Shown here piece after piece: positions 453 to 10,984 of a stretch of 10,984 nucleotides of DNA. Both the position numbers and the translations under genes were made by a program. Location of the stretch: NCBI GenBank assembly GCA_017861495.1, contig JAGFXW010000055.1, positions 1 through 10,984 on the forward strand, read 5' to 3'. The DNA comes from Bacillota bacterium (GTDB lineage: Bacteria > Bacillota_C > Negativicutes > CTSoil-072). Below the pieces are notes generated by a model. The model saw only the letters and a program-made list of their open reading frames with translations, did not search any database and had not been told where the DNA came from. Every line of letters begins with the position of its first letter. Positions within the stretch are counted from its first letter, which is position 1.

Positions 453-479
453 CATTTAATTGTCATTAACAACTAAATG
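453..479. promoter_or_regulatory. 27-bp palindromic operator, distal end of cassette A
   Basis: The core TTGTCATTAACAA (460-472) differs by one base from the perfect palindrome near the promoter of the same gene. Symmetry extends outward to CATTTA...TAAATG, so 11 of 13 base pairs match around a centre at 466. It lies 33 bases beyond the stop of the first MarR gene and about 180 bases upstream of the activase start. It could therefore bind the MarR protein and affect the small ORF and activase downstream. The MarR assignment is inferred from shared sequence with the other three sites. Confidence 0.6.
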
Positions 480-511: not shown

Positions 512-937
512 TCAATTTTTAATATGACCATACAATTTGTTCAAAAGAAACTTTAACGTACTGACTTCTTTTTCACTCATCGCTCCTATCACCCATCGGT
601 CTAATTCTGCAATAAGCGGAAGGATCTTTTTCCTTAACTCGTTTCCTTCCTTCGTCAAATAAATTAAAGAAGATCGTTTGTCATTCTGACTTTCCTCTCG
701 CCGGACAAGACCTCTATCCTCCAGTTTATCAATTAGCCTAGTCGTATATGGCTTATCTCTTAATGATGTTTGCGATAAATCGGTCAATGAAATTCCTTCT
801 TTTTCAGAAAGTCTGGCGAATAATACCCATTGTTCGGGGGTAACACCATAAGGTTTTAGTTGTTGAAGAAATCGTTTGTGCAAATTAGATTGGGTTCTAT
901 TAATAAAGAAACCAATGGTATCAAGTACATCTATCAC
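512..937 (-). CDS. MarR-family winged-helix transcriptional regulator (copy A)
   Basis: A 141-residue MarR-type repressor, the normal length for the family. The winged helix-turn-helix covers roughly residues 33-97: helix GVTPEQWVLFARL, recognition helix around RDKPYTTRLIDKLEDRG (60-76), and the wing with the conserved basic-acidic motif NDKRSSLIYLT (85-95). Terminal helices would form the dimer interface. I place the start at GTG 937 because GGAGGAG sits 8 bases upstream and the start then aligns with the 141-aa copy B. There are no cysteines, which argues against OhrR-type thiol sensing; a small-molecule ligand is more likely. A consensus promoter and a perfect palindrome in the leader suggest that it represses itself. 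It is about 83% identical to the product at 3776-4201. The differences cluster in the C-terminal dimerisation helices (102-127) while the DNA-reading part is almost unchanged. Confidence 0.93.
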   Translation of the reverse strand: MIDVLDTIGFFINRTQSNLHKRFLQQLKPYGVTPEQWVLFARLSEKEGISLTDLSQTSLRDKPYTTRLIDKLEDRGLVRREESQNDKRSSLIYLTKEGNELRKKILPLIAELDRWVIGAMSEKEVSTLKFLLNKLYGHIKN

Positions 938-1049: not shown

Positions 1050-3533
1050 CTATATATCATCTTCACTATTCTTTTGCCTTTTAGAATCGAAATTTCTCAC
1101 GAATTGAGGAGCAAAGCCAAATAATCTTCTGATCCTATTTCCCAGTTTTTTAGATACATCTTTGATTTCACGAATCAGCTCATGATGCTGTTGATCCAAG
1201 TCGAAAAATCCCCATTCAACAACTTGATAAAATTCAGACAACTTTTTACTGAATGCAAGTAACACATCTGAGTCATGCTTCCGGCTCCTTAGTGCAGCAT
1301 ATTCATTCGTCAGATTCACAAACACATCGCTCAGCCTCTTTGTAGTTGGACCGGGGAGTATTTTCTCTGTATGTTCTAGTAATATTCTGGCTGCATCATA
1401 ACATCTGTCAGCCAAGCAGCTAATTTCTCGCACAGTCCGTTCTTCTATTCTTATTTTGAAAACCTCAACACCCAAAGTTTTTTTCTCTTCAAACAAACGC
1501 CGTGCTTCTTTAAAAAGAATTTTCTCTATCTCTTTCGCTTTAATGCATGACCGTCCAAAATCATCAGATGCCAAGACCGGCAAGTAAGCGCTTAAATTCT
1601 CATAATAAATTCTCTCATCTCCGATAAATCCGGTCAATTGCTTACTAATCATTGATTCAAGCCTATCAGAAGCAGAATTGCATAGAACTTGCTGCAATGC
1701 CCTGCCTGGTTGACCTAATGAAAGAGGAAACCGCGAAAAACGGTAGTAAGCTTGGGAGCCAGTCAAGCGTCTATAAGCGACCAATTCTGTGCTAAAGTTC
1801 GGATTTATTTCAAAAGTTGCACGCACTTTTTCGAAAACATCCAACGGCATCGTAAAAACAGATCCTAATCCTTGCGTACATTTAATAACATATCCACTCT
1901 TCCGAAGAATTCGGACAACAAAATCTGCGCAATTTGATTCTTTTGCGTCATATTTACATATCCCCAAGCGAAACTCTTCTTCAATCATTGATGCCTCTGC
2001 ATGCATGCTTTGAATGGATTCTATCGCAAATCCCTTTATACGGAACCCCAGAGTATCCCGGCCATATGCCACCCCATAAGTGCTTGTGTGCTCTTGGTTG
2101 CCAGCGGGAGGAAAAACTCCAAATAGATAATTTGCCAAACTCACATGCTGGAGCAAAGGAGATTCTTTTTCTGGGTGTGCCATATAATTTGAACTGTATA
2201 CTGTAACACCAATGCGAATTGCGATATGACCAAAAGGATTTTCCCTGACTATGCGCTCATCCACTTTTGACGAAGAATAGGAAAGCAATATTTCCACATC
2301 GGCTGGCGCATCAGCCTCAAGCTGTGCCAGAGCATTATAAACATTGCTTGCAGGCTGACCATATTCCAACCCAAATTTTGACGACACGCACCGCGCTTTA
2401 ACTTGAGGATCGAGAACAAAACGTGCGATTTTACTAATATTCACGTTTTCCCGGAGCTCTCTCTGCGCCGCTAGCATAATAGTTTGCTTCTCTTTATCTG
2501 ATAGAAGCCTTCGCGTCTGATCCCCAATTTCCCTAACATCTTTATTAAACTCGGCCAGCCCCAGTTTCACGAACAACTCTGCATTCTCTCTTTCATGTCC
2601 GCTTATTGCGTTCAATAGTATAGTCGGTTTTCCCAATACAAAGGCTTCTGTCGGAGACAATCCCCCCGCTTTAGTAATGAATAGATCGGATGCCTGAATG
2701 AAAGAAACCAGGTCAGTTTGAGGAATGAACCCCATGATTTCCAACTTAAAATGTTTAGGGATTTTAGGTTGAATTCTTTGTAGAGCTTGGAATTGTCTTG
2801 TGTTACGACCACACACTGCGATAATTTGCATGGGCTCTTCTATCGTATTCGAGAGACTCATGACAATACCAGGAAAGTCACCGACTCCTTCTTTTCCACT
2901 GGCTATTGTAATGGTTTTTATGGATAAGGAAAAACCGATTTGAATTAAACATTCTTTAGAAATATTCAGTTTACCCGCAGGAATGTTAACCGGTATACCC
3001 GAGGTTTCAATCAAATCCGGAAATACTCCAGCTGCCAGCCAACCAGTTTCCAGCGCAGGATGGGCAAGAAAAGTTCGATCAATCCGCTTGGATATTCGGG
3101 GAAAATATCCCACAAAATAATCGGTATGGAGCCAACCAATCTTGATAGCTGGAAGCAATCCCTTCTCTCTTAGATTTCCCAGCACTTGCGCAGCTCCATA
3201 ATGAGTGGCCAAGATTGCATCCGGCTTCTCAGCGACAAGATATTCATACACTTTTTGTTCCGGATAATCATTTGGCAAACAAACCAATGATCCGACTCTA
3301 TTCCCCTTCTCTTGCATGGAATGAAATAAATTATCAAACAGAATCGGCAAGTTTTGGGCAACAAACCAATAAAGTTTTTCGTCAAGCCTTCTTCCGATAG
3401 GATCCATAAACTCGCGAATATCTTTTTGCACGATGATAGCAGCGGGCTCTTTTCTGCGAATTTCTTTCTCAATAGAGTTAGCTGCACTAATATGGCCCTG
3501 CCCTATGGAAGAGTAAAACAAAATGATCTTCAT
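1050..3533 (-). CDS. GT28-type (MGDG synthase/UgtP-like) glycosyltransferase fused to a permuted NlpC/P60-LRAT-like domain
   Basis: An 827-residue protein starting at ATG 3533, with AAGGA about 9 bases upstream. Residues 1-375 match the layout of the processive diacylglycerol glycosyltransferase / MGDG synthase group of GT28. The N-terminal half has GQGH (11-14) and GWLHTDYF (133-140). The C-terminal half has the nucleotide-sugar site KAGGLSPTEAFVLGKP (288-303) and GHERENA (312-318). Such enzymes transfer a sugar from a nucleotide sugar to diacylglycerol at the inner membrane face and are usually about 370-400 aa. From ~410 to ~570 there is a second domain with FGHIAIRIG (His435) and, about 100 residues later, SNCADFVVRIL (Cys535). 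His before Cys with these contexts fits circularly permuted papain-like folds (LRAT/NlpC-P60/YiiX type), which act on peptides, lipids or esters. Residues ~620-827 look helical and charged, with no clear membrane segment. The substrate and the role of the fusion are unknown. The first assignment is firm and the second moderate. Confidence 0.8.
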   Translation of the reverse strand: MKIILFYSSIGQGHISAANSIEKEIRRKEPAAIIVQKDIREFMDPIGRRLDEKLYWFVAQNLPILFDNLFHSMQEKGNRVGSLVCLPNDYPEQKVYEYLVAEKPDAILATHYGAAQVLGNLREKGLLPAIKIGWLHTDYFVGYFPRISKRIDRTFLAHPALETGWLAAGVFPDLIETSGIPVNIPAGKLNISKECLIQIGFSLSIKTITIASGKEGVGDFPGIVMSLSNTIEEPMQIIAVCGRNTRQFQALQRIQPKIPKHFKLEIMGFIPQTDLVSFIQASDLFITKAGGLSPTEAFVLGKPTILLNAISGHERENAELFVKLGLAEFNKDVREIGDQTRRLLSDKEKQTIMLAAQRELRENVNISKIARFVLDPQVKARCVSSKFGLEYGQPASNVYNALAQLEADAPADVEILLSYSSSKVDERIVRENPFGHIAIRIGVTVYSSNYMAHPEKESPLLQHVSLANYLFGVFPPAGNQEHTSTYGVAYGRDTLGFRIKGFAIESIQSMHAEASMIEEEFRLGICKYDAKESNCADFVVRILRKSGYVIKCTQGLGSVFTMPLDVFEKVRATFEINPNFSTELVAYRRLTGSQAYYRFSRFPLSLGQPGRALQQVLCNSASDRLESMISKQLTGFIGDERIYYENLSAYLPVLASDDFGRSCIKAKEIEKILFKEARRLFEEKKTLGVEVFKIRIEERTVREISCLADRCYDAARILLEHTEKILPGPTTKRLSDVFVNLTNEYAALRSRKHDSDVLLAFSKKLSEFYQVVEWGFFDLDQQHHELIREIKDVSKKLGNRIRRLFGFAPQFVRNFDSKRQKNSEDDI

Positions 3534-3718: not shown

Positions 3719-3745
3719 CACTTAGTTGTTAATGACAATTAAATG
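3719..3745. promoter_or_regulatory. 27-bp palindromic operator, distal end of cassette B
   Basis: The core TTGTTAATGACAA (3726-3738) is the reverse complement of the distal site of cassette A, and 10 of 13 pairs around 3732 are symmetric. It lies 30 bases beyond the stop of MarR copy B and about 185 bases upstream of the glycosyltransferase fusion. That makes it the best candidate for direct control of that gene by the MarR proteins, or a roadblock to read-through from the regulator. Confidence 0.6.
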
Positions 3746-3775: not shown

Positions 3776-4201
3776 TTAATTTTTAACATGCGCATACAAT
3801 TTGTTTAAGAGAAATTTTAGCTGCATTACCTCTTCTCCACTCATCGTTCCTATCACCCATTGATTTAATTCTGTAATAATCGAAAATATCTCTTTACTTA
3901 ACTCATTTCCTTCTTTCGTCAAATAAATTAAAGAAGATCGTTTGTCATTCTGACTTTCCTCTCGCCGGATAAGACCTCTATCCTCCAGTTTATCAATTAG
4001 CCTAGTTGTATATGGCTTATCTCTTAATGATGTCTTGGACAACTCTGTCGGTGAAATTCCTTCTTTTTCAGAAAGTCTGGCAAATAATACCCATTGTTCA
4101 GGAGTAACACCATACGGTTTTAATTGTTGAAGAAATCGCTTTTGCAATTTAGACTGGGTTCTACTAATAAAGAAACCAATAGTATCAAGTTCATTTATCA
4201 T
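3776..4201 (-). CDS. MarR-family winged-helix transcriptional regulator (copy B)
   Basis: A 141-residue paralogue of the protein at 512-937, with 24 substitutions by my count. The frame is open further upstream, to 4276, but that extension would run through the operator and up to the promoter. I therefore choose ATG 4201 (MINELDTIG), which has AGAGG 7 bases upstream and matches the length of copy A; ATG 4204 is an alternative. The recognition helix and wing (RDKPYTTRLIDKLEDRG, NDKRSSLIYLT) are the same as in copy A apart from one V/I change, so both proteins should read the same DNA site. The dimerisation and ligand region differs (for example KKILPLIAELDRW against KEIFSIITELNQW), so the two may respond to different signals or form heterodimers. 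There are no cysteines. It may share a transcript with the glycosyltransferase fusion downstream. Confidence 0.92.
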   Translation of the reverse strand: MINELDTIGFFISRTQSKLQKRFLQQLKPYGVTPEQWVLFARLSEKEGISPTELSKTSLRDKPYTTRLIDKLEDRGLIRREESQNDKRSSLIYLTKEGNELSKEIFSIITELNQWVIGTMSGEEVMQLKFLLNKLYAHVKN

Positions 4202-4217
4202 CATTATACCTCTTTTA

Positions 4218-4232
4218 GTTGTCATTGACAAC
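4218..4232. promoter_or_regulatory. Perfect 15-bp palindromic operator, proximal to marR copy B
   Basis: GTTGTCATTGACAAC is a perfect palindrome with the same 13-base core as the site at 958-972 but different outer bases. The conserved core inside a diverged leader suggests selection on the site. It lies about 10 bases after the predicted transcription start and overlaps the region just before the ribosome binding site. Confidence 0.75.
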
Positions 4233-4247
4233 AATGTTGCCAATTTC

Positions 4248-4276
4248 ATATTATCGCCTATCAACGAAATAGTCAA
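4248..4276 (-). promoter_or_regulatory. Sigma-70/SigA-type promoter of marR copy B
   Basis: TTGACT (4271-4276) and TAATAT (4248-4253) on the minus strand with a 17-base spacer, identical in hexamers and spacing to the copy A promoter although the spacer sequence has changed. Confidence 0.75.
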
Positions 4277-4533: not shown

Positions 4534-5286
4534 CTATACGTTATGAGACTCAGGAATTCTCTTAGCAACCTTTTCCCATGCATGTTTATCAAGGAAACTC
4601 CCCTGCACGTTTGACTCCAGTTCCTTAAACAAGCTTAGAGATACGCTGAATGACAGGAGATCAGCATCAATAATAGGTCGAGCCGAAATATCCGCCATTC
4701 CCACTACAGCTCGCGGCTGATCTTTAAAAGACTCTTGGAACGGCAGAAGACAAAAGCTCTGGCATCCGGCCGCAAAGGGAATTGCGACATTTTCATTACC
4801 AGAACGGTTATAGTTGGTAAGTACGATCAGCGCTGATAACTGATCCGGGTTTGCATAAAAGACAATAACTTTGGGTTCTTCTTGTGCTGGATCAACTTCT
4901 GTCAAAGGTTTGAAAACTACAAACTGCTCCGGTATATCGGTCAGCGGAAGCCCATCGACAAAGTTTTGGGCGAGTTCCGGTGTCTTTTTATACGCTTCTC
5001 CCGGCGGATATCCTTCGCCGCTTCCAGTTGACAGAAACTGAGGGAATCCCCCGGGAAAACGAACGTACATGTTGCCAAATCCGAGACCGACTCCGCCACC
5101 CAAGCACCCGAAGGTTTTCCGGCTGAAGGCGATTGTCCTTCCCTTCATCGCGGCTGTCATCATGGCAGCCACACAGCCCCATTTTTGCTCAACAAATTCT
5201 AAAGCAGTTTGGGGCTTTTCGTTCGTGAATAGAACCGCTACCGGCGAATACCGCAGCTTGAGTCTTGATGCAAGTTGACTGTTCAT
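4534..5286 (-). CDS. DUF169 family protein
   Basis: A 250-residue protein starting at ATG 5286, with GGAGG 7 bases upstream. DUF169 proteins are common in strict anaerobes and archaea and have no settled function. Family hallmarks are visible: GCVAAM with Cys38, the glycine-rich FGCLGGGVGLGF with Cys61, and AAGCQSFC with Cys175 and Cys179 before a hydrophobic segment. The spaced cysteines and glycines would suit binding of a metal, a cofactor or a cysteine-linked substrate, but this is inference. No signal peptide or membrane helix is seen, so it is probably cytoplasmic. It has its own promoter and follows the isochorismatase-like gene by about 250 bases. The product is complete; a fragment of a related copy lies immediately downstream. 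Confidence 0.85.
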   Translation of the reverse strand: MNSQLASRLKLRYSPVAVLFTNEKPQTALEFVEQKWGCVAAMMTAAMKGRTIAFSRKTFGCLGGGVGLGFGNMYVRFPGGFPQFLSTGSGEGYPPGEAYKKTPELAQNFVDGLPLTDIPEQFVVFKPLTEVDPAQEEPKVIVFYANPDQLSALIVLTNYNRSGNENVAIPFAAGCQSFCLLPFQESFKDQPRAVVGMADISARPIIDADLLSFSVSLSLFKELESNVQGSFLDKHAWEKVAKRIPESHNV

Positions 5287-5310
5287 ACCCTACCCTCCAT
5301 TTCATTATTA

Positions 5311-5338
5311 AATATACGATCCATCACTTGTTAGTCAA
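5311..5338 (-). promoter_or_regulatory. Sigma-70/SigA-type promoter of the DUF169 gene
   Basis: TTGACT (5333-5338) and TATATT (5311-5316) on the minus strand, 16 bases apart, end 24 bases before the ATG. The -35 is the same hexamer as in the two MarR cassettes, but no TTGTCA-type palindrome accompanies it. Confidence 0.6.
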
Positions 5339-5533
5339 CATCCTACTCTATATTATCGGTTGAAATCTGACCATATTCGGGGCAAACATGACACCAAGCG
5401 GCATACATGTTTGGGAAAACCAACATAGTCAAAGTTCAGGGAGATCTCAGCCTTTTTAAAACAAACGATTGCTTGATTAAAATCGAAAAGCGTGGTCAAT
5501 TTACTCATCATGCGTGGTTTCCGTAAAACGAAC

Positions 5534-6127
5534 TTATTTAATTTTGGAAAATACATCTTCCATCAATATTTGAATCAATTGACCCCCTTTTTCTGTCGCC
5601 CAGCTTCCTGCAAGTTCAGCAATGAGTTGATTTGTACTGGTTAATGTCACTCCAGCTTGTTCCATACGTCTTAACGCTGTCTCATCAGCAATTTTTGTCG
5701 GCGAACCCCCGGCATCTACAACAACTTGCACATCATAACCTTGCCTTATAGCCGTGATTGCAGGGTAAACCACACAAACATCATGTGTCACTCCAGCAAT
5801 AATTATTTTCTTTCTTCCTGCATTCTTAACTGCATTTGCGAAATTTTCATCATCCATTGCGTTTACAATTCCAAAACGCTTAACTCTTGCGTCGAATTCT
5901 TTGGGTAAAATTTCTTTAAATTCTTCCAGCAATGGTCCTTGTGCATATTCTTCCATACTACTTGTTAATACAACGGGCATATTTAATACCTTCGCTGACT
6001 TTGCCAATACTAATGCATTCTTTTTCATTTCTTCGAATGTCGTTGATCTAACCCACCCCATTGTACCAACTTGATGATCAATTAATAACATTACTGAATT
6101 TTCTGCTGTAAATTTTTCTTTTATCAT
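5534..6127 (-). CDS. Isochorismatase-family cysteine hydrolase (YcaC-like)
   Basis: A 197-residue protein starting at ATG 6127 behind a strong AAAGGGGGAGAG site. The isochorismatase-like fold is clear: MLLIDHQ with catalytic Asp17, a basic segment RVKRFGIVNAMDDENF near 81-96 (Lys83/Arg84), and AGVTHDVCVVYPA with the nucleophile Cys118. The segment VVVDAGGSPTKIADETALRRM and the overall length match the YcaC subgroup. This subgroup is distinct from true isochorismatases, and its physiological substrate is not established; members are thought to be amide- or ester-type cysteine hydrolases. It lies 110 bases downstream of the FMN reductase-like gene in the same direction. I see no strong promoter in that gap, so co-transcription is plausible. 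True isochorismate hydrolysis (enterobactin-type) is unlikely because no siderophore genes are nearby. Confidence 0.87.
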   Translation of the reverse strand: MIKEKFTAENSVMLLIDHQVGTMGWVRSTTFEEMKKNALVLAKSAKVLNMPVVLTSSMEEYAQGPLLEEFKEILPKEFDARVKRFGIVNAMDDENFANAVKNAGRKKIIIAGVTHDVCVVYPAITAIRQGYDVQVVVDAGGSPTKIADETALRRMEQAGVTLTSTNQLIAELAGSWATEKGGQLIQILMEDVFSKIK

Positions 6128-6237
6128 TTTTCTCTCCCCCTTTATTACTCTTAATTATTTACAAACTTCCGTGAAATGATCCTATTGAATAGTTTCTATT
6201 GGGCACTGTTCTCGGCGCTTCTCTGGCACTCCAGCGA

Positions 6238-6798
6238 TTACACAGCGTTTTTTTCGACCCATAATGCAAATTCATTCATGATTTTTTTCAAAAACTCACG
6301 TGTCCCATCATTAACAAGGACTCCTCTGTCATCGAAAAGATTAGCGGCATTACCTATATATGCCTCGGGTTGCTGCATTGTTGGAACATTCAGGAATACG
6401 AGAGCTTGCCGCAATTGGTGGTTTGCACCAAAACCACTTAACGCACCAATGGATACGCTGACCACAGCACCTGGTTTTTTGTTCCACAAATTTTGGCCAT
6501 AGGGTCTTGATCCTATATCGAGAGCATTCTTAATGACTGCAGGAATAGACCGATTATACTCTGGCGTGACAAAGAGAAAAGCATCAAATTTCTTTAGTTC
6601 TTCACGAAAAGCAGTCCATGTTGCAGGCGTATCTCCTTCATCATCAAAATCTTGGTTGAATATTACCAAATCGCCAATCTTGACTTCTTCCAACTGAAAG
6701 CCTACCGGAGCTAGCTCCATTAAATTCTTTGCAATCTTTCTGTTGAAGGATTCTTTACGCAGACTCCCGATAATAACTCCGATTTTTTTAGTTGTCAT
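6238..6798 (-). CDS. NADPH-dependent FMN reductase-like flavoprotein (flavodoxin fold)
   Basis: A 186-residue protein of the FMN_red family (azoreductase/chromate reductase/quinone reductase-like). The FMN phosphate loop GSLRKESFN is at residues 11-19, and the second FMN-contacting motif TPEYNRSIPAVIKNALD is at 78-94. Members carry FMN and pass two electrons from NAD(P)H to quinones, azo compounds, metals or flavins; the substrate here cannot be read from sequence. I choose ATG 6798 because GGGGG lies 8 bases upstream. The ATG 15 bases earlier is inside that site and has no site of its own. The start overlaps the stop of a short ORF (6788-6868), which suggests translational coupling. It follows the DsbA-like gene closely and probably shares its transcript. 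Confidence 0.9.
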   Translation of the reverse strand: MTTKKIGVIIGSLRKESFNRKIAKNLMELAPVGFQLEEVKIGDLVIFNQDFDDEGDTPATWTAFREELKKFDAFLFVTPEYNRSIPAVIKNALDIGSRPYGQNLWNKKPGAVVSVSIGALSGFGANHQLRQALVFLNVPTMQQPEAYIGNAANLFDDRGVLVNDGTREFLKKIMNEFALWVEKNAV

Positions 6799-6868
6799 AA
6801 TTTGTTCCCCCATTCCATAGGCATTGAAAGCCTATTTTTTCAATCTTAATCACTTGTTGACCGGACAT
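6788..6868 (-). CDS. Short ORF (26 aa) overlapping the start of the FMN reductase-like gene
   Basis: ATG 6868 has a good GGGAG site 7 bases upstream and opens a frame MSGQQVIKIEKIGFQCLWNG... that ends with TAA at 6788. The last codons overlap the ATG of the flavoprotein gene by 11 bases. The frame begins 13 bases after the DsbA-like stop, so the whole gap between the two enzymes is filled with translatable sequence. It may be a coupling or leader peptide that brings ribosomes to the next start, or the remnant of a gene start. It matches no family I know. The good ribosome binding site and the overlap are the only support. Confidence 0.4.
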   Translation of the reverse strand: MSGQQVIKIEKIGFQCLWNGGTNYDN

Positions 6869-6881
6869 ATTATCACTCCCT

Positions 6882-7787
6882 TCATCTATTGCAAAAACCA
6901 GAATCTGAATCACAGGATAACGGATTGATTGCGCACTCTACGAAGAATCCATTGCCTGCTGAAATGAGTTTGATAAGCTTTTGGCTTTTCAATTTTTCGA
7001 TAATCTCTTGTGTTTCTTCATTTGAATATTCCAGGGCAACTTGTATTTCAACCGGAGTAACCCGTCCGAATTTTTTAATGAAGTTCAGAACGCTCTCTTC
7101 CGACTTCTGTGGAACGCTATCGTTTATAGTATCACCAGCCATGGTTTTGATTACTGCACGGAAGGCTTCAAAGGTCTGATAGCCCCTCAAAAGCACTTCT
7201 TTTTCGCCAATTCGCACTAAATAACTAGGGAAGCCGTGAACCCTATATTGACGAGTAGTCTGCAAGTCATTGTTGAATGCATCTTCTGCAGTTCCATCAG
7301 TTAGCCTTGCAATGAATTTTGCAATATCAACTCCGACCTCTGACGCCAGCTCAATCAGCACTTCCTGTTTGCTTATCTGTTTTGCCTCGGCGGCCGATGC
7401 TTCCCGCATTCTCCTCAAGAATCTATCCGCCAGCTCTGCATTCTCCATTTGAACTGCCTTGTAGGCGATATTTTGCGGATATGTGGACGGATAGTCCTCT
7501 GAAAACAGACAGAAACCTTCTCCTTTTACTGGCATGCCATGCCTTTCAGATGCTTCAACCCAATGCTTTGCAATTTGCTTGTTTGAACGTTCAGGATCTC
7601 CTCCTATGTCATTATTACTGTCATAAAATTCTCTAATATCTTTAACAAGGCCGCCCATTACATATTTAACTGTCAATTGATCACCATACCTGGTTTCAAG
7701 TTTGCGCAAAATAGGTTCACTACCCCAGCACCAAGTGCAAACTGGATCTGTAAATTCAATTATTTCTACGGTTTTCTTCTCAGCCAT
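6882..7787 (-). CDS. DsbA-family thiol oxidoreductase with C-terminal winged-helix region
   Basis: A 301-residue protein. I start it at ATG 7787 (MAEKKTVEIIEFTDPVC) with AAAGGA about 9 bases upstream, rather than at the upstream ATGs of the open frame. Residues 1-215 have the thioredoxin/DsbA fold with the active site DPVCTWCWGSEP (Cys17-Thr-Trp-Cys20) and the cis-proline loop HGFPSYL (Pro187). There is no signal peptide, so it is a cytoplasmic member (FrnE/PDI-like) rather than a periplasmic disulfide donor. Residues ~230-283 (SVLNFIKKFGRVTPVEIQVALEYSNEETQEIIEKL...) read as a winged helix. The extreme C-terminus adds Cys285, Cys292 and Cys299, which could form a second redox or metal site. 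It could be a redox enzyme, a polyketide-type isomerase (FrnE was named from frenolicin biosynthesis) or a redox-responsive DNA-binding protein. It heads a probable operon with the flavoprotein. Confidence 0.85.
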   Translation of the reverse strand: MAEKKTVEIIEFTDPVCTWCWGSEPILRKLETRYGDQLTVKYVMGGLVKDIREFYDSNNDIGGDPERSNKQIAKHWVEASERHGMPVKGEGFCLFSEDYPSTYPQNIAYKAVQMENAELADRFLRRMREASAAEAKQISKQEVLIELASEVGVDIAKFIARLTDGTAEDAFNNDLQTTRQYRVHGFPSYLVRIGEKEVLLRGYQTFEAFRAVIKTMAGDTINDSVPQKSEESVLNFIKKFGRVTPVEIQVALEYSNEETQEIIEKLKSQKLIKLISAGNGFFVECAINPLSCDSDSGFCNR

Positions 7788-7806
7788 AGTACATTTTCCT
7801 TTCAGA

Positions 7807-7835
7807 TATAAAAATAATCTCATCAATTATGTGAA
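7807..7835 (-). promoter_or_regulatory. Possible promoter of the DsbA-like/flavoprotein operon
   Basis: On the minus strand, TTCACA (7830-7835) and TTTATA (7807-7812) are 17 bases apart, ending 19 bases before the ATG. Each hexamer departs from consensus at two positions, so this is a moderate match in AT-rich DNA. Confidence 0.35.
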
Positions 7836-8007: not shown

Positions 8008-8463
8008 CTACTCAACATTTGACACCACTTTTCGTAAAAGTTTTTTTAAAGTATGAACCTCATTTTCCGTAAGTCCTTCGGTAGCTTCTTTAAGAACACT
8101 AACAGCAATGGGAACCACTTGCTCTCTGAGCTCTTTGCCACTGTCGGTCAGGTAAACTAAAAATGATCTTCTATCGCTTTGGTTAATATGACGTTTGACA
8201 AGCCCCTTGGATTCCATTCCATCTAATATTCGTGTCACGGCAGCTTGATCTTTCAACGTTTGTTCAGATAAATCCTTTTGGCTGATTCCATCCTGGTCGA
8301 ATAGTCGGCCAATGATCGCCCACTGTTCCCGGGTAATACCATATGACTTTATTTGCCGTTGGAAGCGGCTCTTAATTTTTAAATCTGCACGATAAATTAG
8401 AAAACCAAGCGAATCATCTACTAAATAAATTTTCGTCACCACCTCAGACAAATTACTTGACAT
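8008..8463 (-). CDS. MarR-family winged-helix transcriptional regulator (third, divergent copy)
   Basis: A MarR-type regulator of about 151 residues with the same architecture as the other two: SYGITREQWAIIGRL, recognition helix KDQAAVTRILDGMESKGLV and wing QSDRRSFLVYLT. The recognition helix differs (DQAAVTRILD against DKPYTTRLID), so it should read a different site. There are no cysteines. The start is uncertain. ATG 8463 is the first ATG after the promoter-like TTGACA, but it has no ribosome binding site. GAGGTGG lies within the first codons, so a shorter product from a weak start near 8424-8430 is possible. The upstream extension to TTG 8505 would use the -35 box as a start codon, and I reject it. 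It lies upstream of, and in the same direction as, the DsbA-like, flavoprotein and hydrolase genes, which are its most likely targets. Confidence 0.88.
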   Translation of the reverse strand: MSSNLSEVVTKIYLVDDSLGFLIYRADLKIKSRFQRQIKSYGITREQWAIIGRLFDQDGISQKDLSEQTLKDQAAVTRILDGMESKGLVKRHINQSDRRSFLVYLTDSGKELREQVVPIAVSVLKEATEGLTENEVHTLKKLLRKVVSNVE

Positions 8464-8476
8464 ATCAATTATTTTT

Positions 8477-8505
8477 AGTTTATATCTGGAATTGTATTTT
8501 GTCAA
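8477..8505 (-). promoter_or_regulatory. Promoter-like sequence for the third MarR gene
   Basis: TTGACA (8500-8505, perfect -35) and TAAACT (8477-8482, a 4/6 -10) are 17 bases apart on the minus strand. If it is used, the mRNA leader before ATG 8463 is only a few bases long. Confidence 0.45.
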
Positions 8506-8508
8506 TAA

Positions 8509-8524
8509 TAACTATCGATAATTA
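8509..8524. promoter_or_regulatory. Candidate operator of the third MarR protein
   Basis: TAACTATCGATAATTA is a 16-bp palindrome with one mismatched pair, starting 4 bases upstream of the -35 box. Its size and position suit a MarR operator. It differs from the TTGTCA core, which agrees with the changed recognition helix. The IS30-family element begins only 22 bases further out. Confidence 0.4.
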
Positions 8525-8576: not shown

Positions 8577-9647
<1,071 letters not shown>

Positions 9648-9704: not shown

Positions 9705-10526
9705 TTATAAGGTCAATCGTCGGTATTCAACCGGCGTTAAATAATTAAGCGAGCCATGAATCCTGCCATTATTAAACCAGGCAACATATTGGGCTAATTC
9801 ATGGCGTAAATGGCCTAAACTATCAAAATTTCTTCCATTCACAAATTCGGTTTTAAAGATTTTAAAGGTTGCTTCTGCGACAGCATTATCATAATGGCAA
9901 CCCTTCATACCATGGGATCGCTTGATTTGAAAAGTAGAAATCACTTCGTCAATCAGTTCATTTTTAAACTCACTGCCCCGGTCGGAGTGGAACATCTGAA
10001 TGTGTCGCAAATCGGTTTGCACGGCTGCAAAGGCATCATATACCAATTGAGCATCTTTATGAATTCCAGCACTATATCCAATAATTTCCCGATTAAATAA
10101 ATCCACAAGAATGCAGACATAGTTCCATTTGTAATTGGCTCGAACATACGTCAAATCACTCACAACCACTGCATAAGGAGCTTGTCCATTAAATTGTCGG
10201 TTCAACTCGTTTTTTACAGGATCTTCATTGCATTTTTGCTTATGTGCTTTAAATTGCGCAATTGTATATTTTGATACTAAACCGACGCTTTTCATAATTC
10301 TTCCTATACGTCTGCGCGATACCTACAAGTCCAGCTTTTGCAGTTCTTTTTTGAGTTTTCTTGTTCCATATACGTCATGATTTTCATGAAAGACCTGGCT
10401 GATCTTTGCTACCAGGGCACTTTCATCCGGCTTGCAAGCTGTTTCATAATAATAGGTGCTTCTCGCAATATTTAAGCATTTACACATCGCTGATATGGAG
10501 TATTTATGAGCATTTTGCCGGATCAC
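9705..10526 (-). pseudogene. IS3-family transposase orfB (DDE integrase), interrupted by an in-frame amber codon
   Basis: One frame of 273 sense-plus-amber codons runs from GTG 10526 to TAA 9705. It is split after residue 67 by TAG (10323-10325). Beyond the stop the protein continues as expected: VSRRRIGRIMKSVGLVSKYT. The integrase core then follows, with SDLTYVRANYKW (first Asp), FHSDRGSEF (second Asp) and DNAVAEATFKIFKTEF (Glu), ending RIHGSLNYLTPVEYRRL. The TAG stands where relatives commonly have a residue such as Gln, so a single CAG-to-TAG change explains it. No base is lost. It would normally be made as an OrfAB fusion by -1 frameshifting from the upstream orfA. A restart at ATG 10295 would give only the catalytic half. 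Confidence 0.88.
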
Positions 10527-10528
10527 TC

Positions 10529-10813
10529 TTATTTTTGTGCCAGTATCAGCGCTGCTTGCTTTAAAATATCGTTTTCCATTTTTAATTGTTGGTTTTCTTT
10601 GCGTAGTTTAAGGAGTTCGTTTTCTTCGTCGCTGCGATTGTCGATTGCCTTAAATGAGCCAGTCGTCTTACTTTGCTTAACCCAATTGTCAAAGGCTGAA
10701 GAACTCAAATCATACTCTTTGATGATTTCCGCCCTTGGTTTTCCGTTTAAATGCAGTTGGACCATTTGATTTTTGAATTCGTCTGTAAAAGCTCTACGTT
10801 CTCTTCTCGTCAT
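10529..10813 (-). CDS. IS3-family transposase orfA (helix-turn-helix protein)
   Basis: A 94-residue protein starting at ATG 10813 (MTRRERRAFTDEFKNQMVQ). The frame is open for 20 more codons, but that would run into the IS end. Residues ~8-50 form the IS3 helix-turn-helix (EIIKEYDLSSSAFDNWVKQ). Residues ~60-90 are a leucine-zipper coiled coil (ENELLKLRKENQQLKMENDIL). OrfA binds the IS ends and joins OrfB through frameshifting. It ends at CAA AAA TAA, and orfB lies in the -1 frame, so slippage on the A-run just before the stop is the likely site. I see no strong ribosome binding site. Confidence 0.88.
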   Translation of the reverse strand: MTRRERRAFTDEFKNQMVQLHLNGKPRAEIIKEYDLSSSAFDNWVKQSKTTGSFKAIDNRSDEENELLKLRKENQQLKMENDILKQAALILAQK

Positions 10814-10862
10814 AGTATAAATTGCAAGTTTAAATGCCGTCCATATATTGGGAATTGGTGTA

Positions 10863-10984
10863 ATGTTAAGCATTGTCTGTTGTTACCCTTTTTCCTGATG
10901 ACAAATGCCTTTCCGATTAAAGGGCTTTGGTCAAGGTCGGATGCTTGCAGCCGGTGAAACATACCTTGACCATGGACCTGGATC
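10863..10984. other. Unassigned flank of the IS3-family element
   Basis: This stretch of about 120 bp runs to the window edge. It contains a 10-base inverted repeat, TGGTCAAGGT (10928-10937) and ACCTTGACCA (10963-10972), with a 25-base loop. Open frames run to the edge on both strands (for example plus-strand ATG 10905), but none has a ribosome binding site or a sequence I recognise. It may be part of a gene that the insertion interrupted. Confidence 0.3.

Follow-up and report, generated by a model that had tools for sequence, protein, structure and literature searches.

The window, as we call the whole stretch of 10,984 nucleotides that was analysed, carries a fusion gene on the minus strand (1050..3533), with its ATG start at 3533 and a stop codon that ends at 1050. 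The encoded protein of 827 aa has three parts: a GT28 / MGDG-synthase-type glycosyltransferase domain (residues 1-380; 2394..3533, minus strand), a second domain predicted to be a permuted NlpC/P60 papain-like domain (residues 385-620; 1674..2381, minus strand), and a weakly conserved tail predicted to be helical (residues 621-827; 1053..1673, minus strand). We found the fused open reading frame proposed by the first-pass annotation to be real, and frame 1 of the plus strand over 1050-3533 is interrupted by many stops. The hydropathy of the protein indicates no membrane segment (highest 19-residue mean 1.33). Two MarR regulator genes flank the fusion gene, one upstream (3776..4201, minus strand; likely ATG at 4201, with a TTG at 4276 as the start in the open-reading-frame list) and a second, duplicated one downstream (512..937, minus strand); their proteins are 83% identical and their upstream regions are alike. 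No Rfam family or tRNA was found in the window.

Diacylglycerol glycosyltransferases of the MGD1 and UgtP type (GT28) are known as stand-alone enzymes, whereas the window protein carries a second enzyme-like domain after its GT28 half. Pfam recognizes this half through MGDG_synth (residues 14-182, E 2.7e-10, 41 bits vs a gathering cut-off of 25) and Glyco_tran_28_C (residues 225-351, E 3.5e-8, 34.1 bits vs a gathering cut-off of 22), and the NCBIfam models for diglucosyl diacylglycerol synthase align with residues 2-375, far under their cut-off (114.6 vs 500 bits). Its sequence relatives in the PDB are a processive diacylglycerol beta-glucosyltransferase (9wde) and MGD1 (4wyi), and MurG matches weakly. 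The half is predicted to adopt an MGD1-like fold with a histidine at the position of the catalytic base, which in MGD1 is His155 (PMC7419546). The predicted equivalent is His14 (3492..3494, minus strand), paired through the range of an alignment in which residue 1 of the model aligns with MGD1 142; this histidine is identical in 92 of 92 ungapped sequences among the 94 full-architecture proteins described below. We predict that the GT28 half transfers a hexose to diacylglycerol as the acceptor.

Residues 385-827 gave no match to Pfam or NCBIfam at E up to 1. Using AlphaFold2 on residues 385-650 alone, we obtained a model (pLDDT 85.8, pTM 0.88) with a papain-like core in which the histidine strand lies ahead of the cysteine helix, as in the permuted NlpC/P60 superfamily; the papain-like core anticipated from the sequence is present in this predicted structure. 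Foldseek gave TseH as the best structural match of the model, with YiiX and BcPPNE also close; the best match among solved structures had E 7.4e-3, and the YiiX and BcPPNE structural alignments had 14-15% identity. LRAT-family structures were absent from the best 1000 Foldseek matches, a scope that excludes nothing. By sequence, the second domain could be tied to no solved structure: a search up to E 10 gave 64 hits, the best at 0.072, which we read as chance. Hence, the relation to known permuted enzymes is a distant one.

The histidine of FGHIAIRIG had been numbered 435, a position occupied by glycine; it is residue 436 (2226..2228, minus strand). The cysteine of SNCADFV is Cys535 (1929..1931, minus strand), as originally numbered, and is the first residue of helix 535-544. 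In the model, His436 is at the start of a strand and Cys535 at the start of a helix, both within the structurally aligned stretch. His436 is identical in 100 of 100 proteins, the window's own included, and Cys535 in all 98 with a residue at that position, the remaining two proteins being truncated; both are invariant in the 94 full-architecture proteins. This conservation, which the first pass had expected, and the model point to His436 as the catalytic histidine and Cys535 as the nucleophile. Asn449 (2187..2189, minus strand) is a candidate for the third, polar residue of the triad, being N in 92 of the 94 full-architecture proteins and H in two, and three stand-alone forms of the domain (see below) likewise have N after the His motif (paired by eye). 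Tyr490, conserved in 99 of 99 ungapped proteins, is a candidate signature tyrosine. A GT28 enzyme and a permuted papain-like domain are, as proposed, joined in one protein, the former identified by Pfam and the latter predicted from the model and the invariant His and Cys.

To place the second domain in a family, we compared profiles with hhalign, using 101 sequences (cut to 64 by the hhalign filter) for the domain. The alignment with Peptidase_C92, the YiiX-type family, had P 1.1e-4, probability 57 and score 39.1 over 64 columns that exclude the His and pair Cys535 with the C92 cysteine, and that with LRAT had P 0.028, probability 1.8 and score 21.6, with His436 and Cys535 both paired with LRAT residues. 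The negative control, the N-terminal GT28 half of the protein, gave P 0.15, and the positive control, LRAT against C92, gave P 6.9e-7 and probability 92; LRAT and C92 resemble each other much more than either resembles the second domain. None of 150 column shuffles for each family reached the real score (maximum 20.95 for C92 and 19.7 for LRAT), and reversed profiles scored 12.6 and 9.9, respectively. The LRAT profile was built from 12 of 16 loci (L025, L027 and L028 were under the family cut-off and L026 was over it only with in-frame neighbours) and the C92 profile from 12 of 20 (the open-reading-frame pick missed the gene in L034 and L035, and L048-L053 were under the cut-off).

Scanning 15 proteins, we found no Pfam family over its cut-off on the second domain and no match at E up to 1 to Peptidase_C92 (PF05708) or to Lnb_N / DUF4105 (PF13387), and Lnb_N members were found in none of 21 genomes searched. 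LRAT (PF04970) was over its cut-off in none of the 15, the best being P0035 (12.1 bits vs 24.3); with this single sub-threshold hit and the weak profile score, LRAT is unsupported as the family. Of the first-pass label LRAT/NlpC-P60, the permuted NlpC/P60 fold is supported, LRAT being a weaker relative than TseH, YiiX and BcPPNE. In our reading, the second domain represents a divergent family, as yet without a name, within the permuted NlpC/P60 superfamily, leaning to YiiX/C92 over LRAT; fold and motif carry this view more than profile scores.

To our knowledge, YiiX and BcPPNE have no glycosyltransferase partner. They also differ from the window protein in that it has no Pfam C92 match and has Asn as its candidate third residue, where BcPPNE has Glu. 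As in LRAT and HRASLS enzymes, an NC motif is present at the Cys, and His and Cys pair in the profile alignment. TseH and Tox-Act1 are T6SS effectors, and DUF4105/Lnb, to which the window protein has no Lnb_N match, is reported to be a lipoprotein N-acyltransferase; the passages on this group in PMC12994826 describe no glycosyltransferase partner. LnsA of Staphylococcus aureus is also of the permuted NlpC/P60 type and is required for acyl transfer; lipoprotein N-acylation needs LnsA with LnsB, whose individual roles that study leaves undefined, and, unlike the fusion, LnsA-LnsB are two proteins, LnsA has a signal peptide and the substrate is a lipoprotein (PMC7387801).

The roughly 250 residues expected after the second domain do include a helical tail, but the papain-like domain extends to about residue 620, so the tail is about 207 residues long, with helices mostly at 669-804 and a basic amphipathic stretch at 787-804. 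Among 86 long-tailed relatives, mean identity to the window protein is 61% for the GT28 half, 59% for residues 385-620 and 29% for residues 640-827, and fewer than 140 of 227 positions are filled in seven of the 94 full-architecture proteins. This low identity and these gaps led us to reject the tail as an essential part; it is not a conserved element of the architecture.

Searching with residues 385-827, we found 100 proteins, the window's own included; set A1 comprises 72 of the 100, and set A3 comprises 60 of the 100 besides the window piece. The GT28 and second domains occur together, nearly complete, in 94 of the 100, and P0043, P0068, P0075, P0091, P0095 and P0100 are incomplete on one side. 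Hence, the pairing of the two domains goes beyond chance, within a set that was selected by length and by words taken from residues 385-827, with scoring confined to the 7997 candidates that had most words in common, and that is uninformative on GT28 proteins that lack the domain. Distances between sequences are correlated across the two domains (r 0.958 for 94 sequences; 999 permutations reached no more than 0.158). In both domain trees, the 45 full sequences ranked best, including the window's, form one clade (support 0.987 and 0.945), P0098 and P0099 form a clade in both, and a middle group of 47 forms a clade in neither. The trees have 49 of 91 splits in common, and 26 of those with support of at least 0.9 (52 and 35 splits). 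Although not a formal test, this fits a single old fusion kept intact and not repeated fusions.

Organism names attached to the relatives include Syntrophaceae, Smithella, Paenibacillus sp. FSL H7-0357, Polaromonas, Acidovorax, Rhodoferax, Acidobacteriales, Methanomethylovorans and Bdellovibrionales. With the seed genome counted each time, matches were found in 3 of 185, 1 of 398 and 1 of 148 genomes, these samples being the groups of three loosely labelled MAGs, and most of the relatives named above, such as Syntrophaceae and Polaromonas, belonging to groups outside them. A scan of genome contigs yielded three loci out of 16 matched stretches. Five stretches of viral contigs fit the search pattern with no relative among them, and the window protein had no PHROG match at E up to 1; from these two results we rejected the idea that the gene is viral or comes from a phage.

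A hydrophobic run of at least 12 residues lies near the start of 23 of the 94 full members, and P0058, P0061 and P0064 (Polaromonas, Acidovorax and Rhodoferax) begin with a hydrophobic helix followed by arginines. Judged by eye, P0076, P0098 and P0099 look exported as whole proteins. Motifs seen by eye at the end of P0098 (1204 aa) suggested a PlsC-like acyltransferase, a candidate that was set aside since Pfam, NCBIfam and PDB sequences lent it no support. Searching for stand-alone forms of the second domain returned 24 proteins, many of which resemble pieces of the fused form; we read six in full and the first residues of all 24. P0114, P0117 and P0118 look complete, two of the three with signal-peptide-like starts, and a repeat search returned the same three and P0125, a shortened fusion. 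Among the proteins found, the second domain is mostly fused, and it can also occur alone, perhaps outside the cytoplasm.

The fusion gene is plasmid-borne in Polaromonas naphthalenivorans CJ2 and in Polaromonas sp. JS666, within the same gene run: TetR, hypothetical, DUF883, DUF6781, AarF/UbiB kinase-like, fusion, patatin lipase, polyprenyl synthetase, RND adaptor, RND permease and TolC. From DUF6781 to TolC the genes abut or overlap, the fusion gene overlapping its neighbour by 4 bases on either side. For the CJ2 copy, we checked the domains of seven genes, the prenyl synthetase domain being narrowly over its cut-off (29.5 vs 27 bits); the hypothetical gene has no domain, and the pump genes were taken from annotation. 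Past an AraC gene, CJ2 also carries a fatty-acid desaturase and a long-chain acyl-CoA ligase. A TetR gene lies immediately upstream of the fusion gene in four loci (L001, L002, L003 and L017; domain confirmed in L003 and L017), a DedA/VTT-domain gene follows the fusion gene in L003, and in L016 the contig stops where the fusion gene begins, its upstream side lying outside the sequence.

In the window, a palindrome between the upstream MarR gene and the fusion gene (3726..3738; TTGTCATTAACAA), 193 bases ahead of the fusion ATG, is a predicted operator. With at most one mismatch, the 13-base palindrome TTGTCAATGACAA occurs at four sites in the window (460-472, 959-971, 3726-3738 and 4219-4231), all of them intergenic provided that the upstream MarR gene starts at ATG 4201. 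There are six strand matches to TTGTCAATGACAA in the window vs a chance mean of 0.07, the motif having been picked from the sites at 959 and 4219, which belong to the duplicated stretch and are hence non-independent. The pattern TTGTYAWTRACAA was found in 0 of 55 loci. Promoter-like sites in the window number 20 (12.8 ± 3.6 expected) and were given no weight. We predict from this arrangement that the fusion gene is here under MarR control, with a MarR protein binding the palindromes and responding to an inducer. TetR may take the place of MarR in some relatives, and the trigger is perhaps envelope or solvent stress.

Our preferred reading, which we hold with about even confidence, is that the fusion protein is a membrane-associated two-step enzyme for glycolipid tailoring that adjusts sugar head and acyl content together. 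In the proposed mechanism, the GT28 half would convert UDP-hexose and diacylglycerol to glycosyl-diacylglycerol, with His14 as the base, and the permuted NlpC/P60 half would adjoin it on the same membrane face. There, the Cys535 thiolate, activated by His436, would take an acyl chain from a membrane lipid to form a Cys535 thioester, and the acyl group would pass to the new glycolipid, to water or to another acceptor. We infer acyl-thioester chemistry on lipids, and transfer in place of hydrolysis. Lipid-acyl chemistry is favoured by analogy, since the permuted branch is lipid-associated (YiiX, whose hydrophobic pocket contains a fatty acid (PMC3142127), as well as Tox-Act1, DUF4105/Lnb and LnsA), and also since a number of the genes that accompany the fusion in Polaromonas encode lipid enzymes. 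We rank transfer over hydrolysis on the judgement that an enzyme joined to a synthase would tailor what the synthase makes. That the GT half is nearest to MGD1 and the processive diacylglycerol glucosyltransferase and that the second domain occurs mostly with GT28 speak for tailoring, as do the predicted permuted fold with its invariant His436 and Cys535, the profile link to C92, the Polaromonas gene run with its kinase-like, prenyl synthetase and RND pump genes, and the DedA/VTT-domain neighbour in L003. Against it, the three exported-looking proteins would be in a place where a UDP-sugar donor is unexpected, and LRAT, the branch with the best proven acyl transfer, matches weakly (P 0.028, probability 1.8). 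The distance to solved permuted enzymes, the C92 match limited to the Cys region and the lack of a hydropathic membrane segment in the window protein also count against it.

A bolder form of this reading, which we put forward tentatively, is that glycosyl-diacylglycerol is built and then acylated through the Cys thioester on one polypeptide, giving an undescribed class of acylated glycolipid that would be handed to the co-encoded RND pump in Gram-negative hosts; the thiol domain would then be a new family of GT-bound permuted NlpC/P60 acyltransferases.

For TseH, the best structural match of the second domain, a fluorescence assay on liposomes revealed phospholipase activity and a mass-spectrometry assay did not, and Tox-Act1 is a phospholipase that cleaves phosphatidylglycerol and phosphatidylethanolamine (PMC12994826). 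It is somewhat doubtful, although worth weighing, that the second half is likewise a plain phospholipase or glycolipase, in which Cys535 would free acyl chains to water for lyso-lipids or recycling while GT28 glycosylates, with no acyl transfer to the sugar. The patatin lipase gene next to the fusion gene in Polaromonas cuts both ways, being also a separate lipase that the operon already has; a constitutively active fused lipase would also harm its own membrane unless tightly controlled, and neither objection is decisive.

Cleavage of a fatty acid-amino acid amide has been proposed for BcPPNE and YiiX (PMC3142127), C92 has been described as a family of lipid amidases, and peptidoglycan is the target that canonical NlpC/P60 enzymes cut (PMC10318531). 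The profile lean to C92 would also fit a second half that, as an amidase or peptidase, acts on a protein, on a peptide of peptidoglycan or on an amino acid linked to a lipid, the GT28 product serving as anchor or signal. We regard this as unlikely: the GT half of most members would have to be cytoplasmic to reach UDP-sugar, far from mature peptidoglycan, and the predicted fold is that of the permuted, lipid-associated branch. Finally, MGD1 needs anionic lipids for activity (PMC7419546), which makes a lipid-binding regulator plausible, but it is very unlikely that the second half lacks catalysis and controls the GT by sensing lipids or docking to the membrane, since mere binding would not need the invariant His436 and Cys535 or the nearly invariant Asn449.

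Among the papers that our searches of the open-licence PubMed Central literature listed, judged by title and opening of the abstract, none describes a GT28 and permuted NlpC/P60 fusion or its operon, in line with the initial statement that no described enzyme of such architecture was known. Each half is of a known kind; what appears to be new is their combination, together with the sequence family to which the second half belongs. Glycolipid synthases and lipid-active permuted NlpC/P60 enzymes are known separately, and here they are joined in one protein; that the fusion has been long kept suggests that the two reactions belong together. The fusion also offers a concrete substrate hypothesis for the poorly understood bacterial branch of permuted NlpC/P60 proteins. 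The pairing suggests an unstudied route of membrane-lipid tailoring and could reveal a new membrane lipid.

A 13-bp palindrome, predicted to be an operator, was found at window positions 460-472, 959-971, 3726-3738 and 4219-4231, beside the two duplicated MarR genes (512-937 and 3776-4201) that flank the fusion gene. This common palindrome suggests a small MarR regulon that takes in the fusion gene, and the gene at 1-273 is perhaps a further member. By eye, this gene is CoA-dehydratase-activator-like. We also found a third MarR protein (8008-8505), which has 41% identity to the MarR protein of 512-937, and a weaker copy of the palindrome (8499-8511, two mismatches) accompanies its gene.

Between MarR genes, the domain scan identified DUF169, isochorismatase-like, NADPH-dependent FMN reductase and DsbA-like genes (4534-7826), a set that looks like a redox or xenobiotic response. 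At the right end of the window, the same scan found a transposase that matches HTH_38 and an integrase core (8610-9647) and that we take to be IS30-type, and a transposase piece with an rve domain (9705-10295), presumably IS3-type; 10323-10873 looks like the remainder of this piece.

Among the relatives, the second domain occurs without its GT28 partner in the stand-alone forms P0114, P0117 and P0118, and P0114 and P0118 have signal-peptide-like starts. P0098 (Bdellovibrionales, 1204 aa) has a lipoprotein-like start and ~300 additional C-terminal residues; acyltransferase-like motifs were seen by eye in this extension, and searches of Pfam, NCBIfam and PDB did not support them. For the predicted structure of the second domain (model m58cff2be6821), the top match in the viral structure set BFVD was the uncharacterised Homavirus protein A0A3G5A5F0 (E 1.2e-9, TM 0.59, 18% identity).

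The gene order TetR, fusion gene, dihydrodipicolinate-synthase-like gene is common to loci L001 (labelled Oscillospiraceae), Synergistaceae L002 and L017, and the TetR-fusion pair also occurs in L003 (labelled Methanomethylovorans); the bins behind L001 and L003 may be mislabelled. On two Polaromonas plasmids, both typed as conjugative, we found a run of 11 genes that begins with TetR and ends with TolC (L013, 4357-18921; L014, 4388-18906) and includes UbiB-like, patatin and prenyl-synthetase genes. No description of this run was found in the open-licence PubMed Central literature, and it looks like a lipid synthesis-and-export operon.
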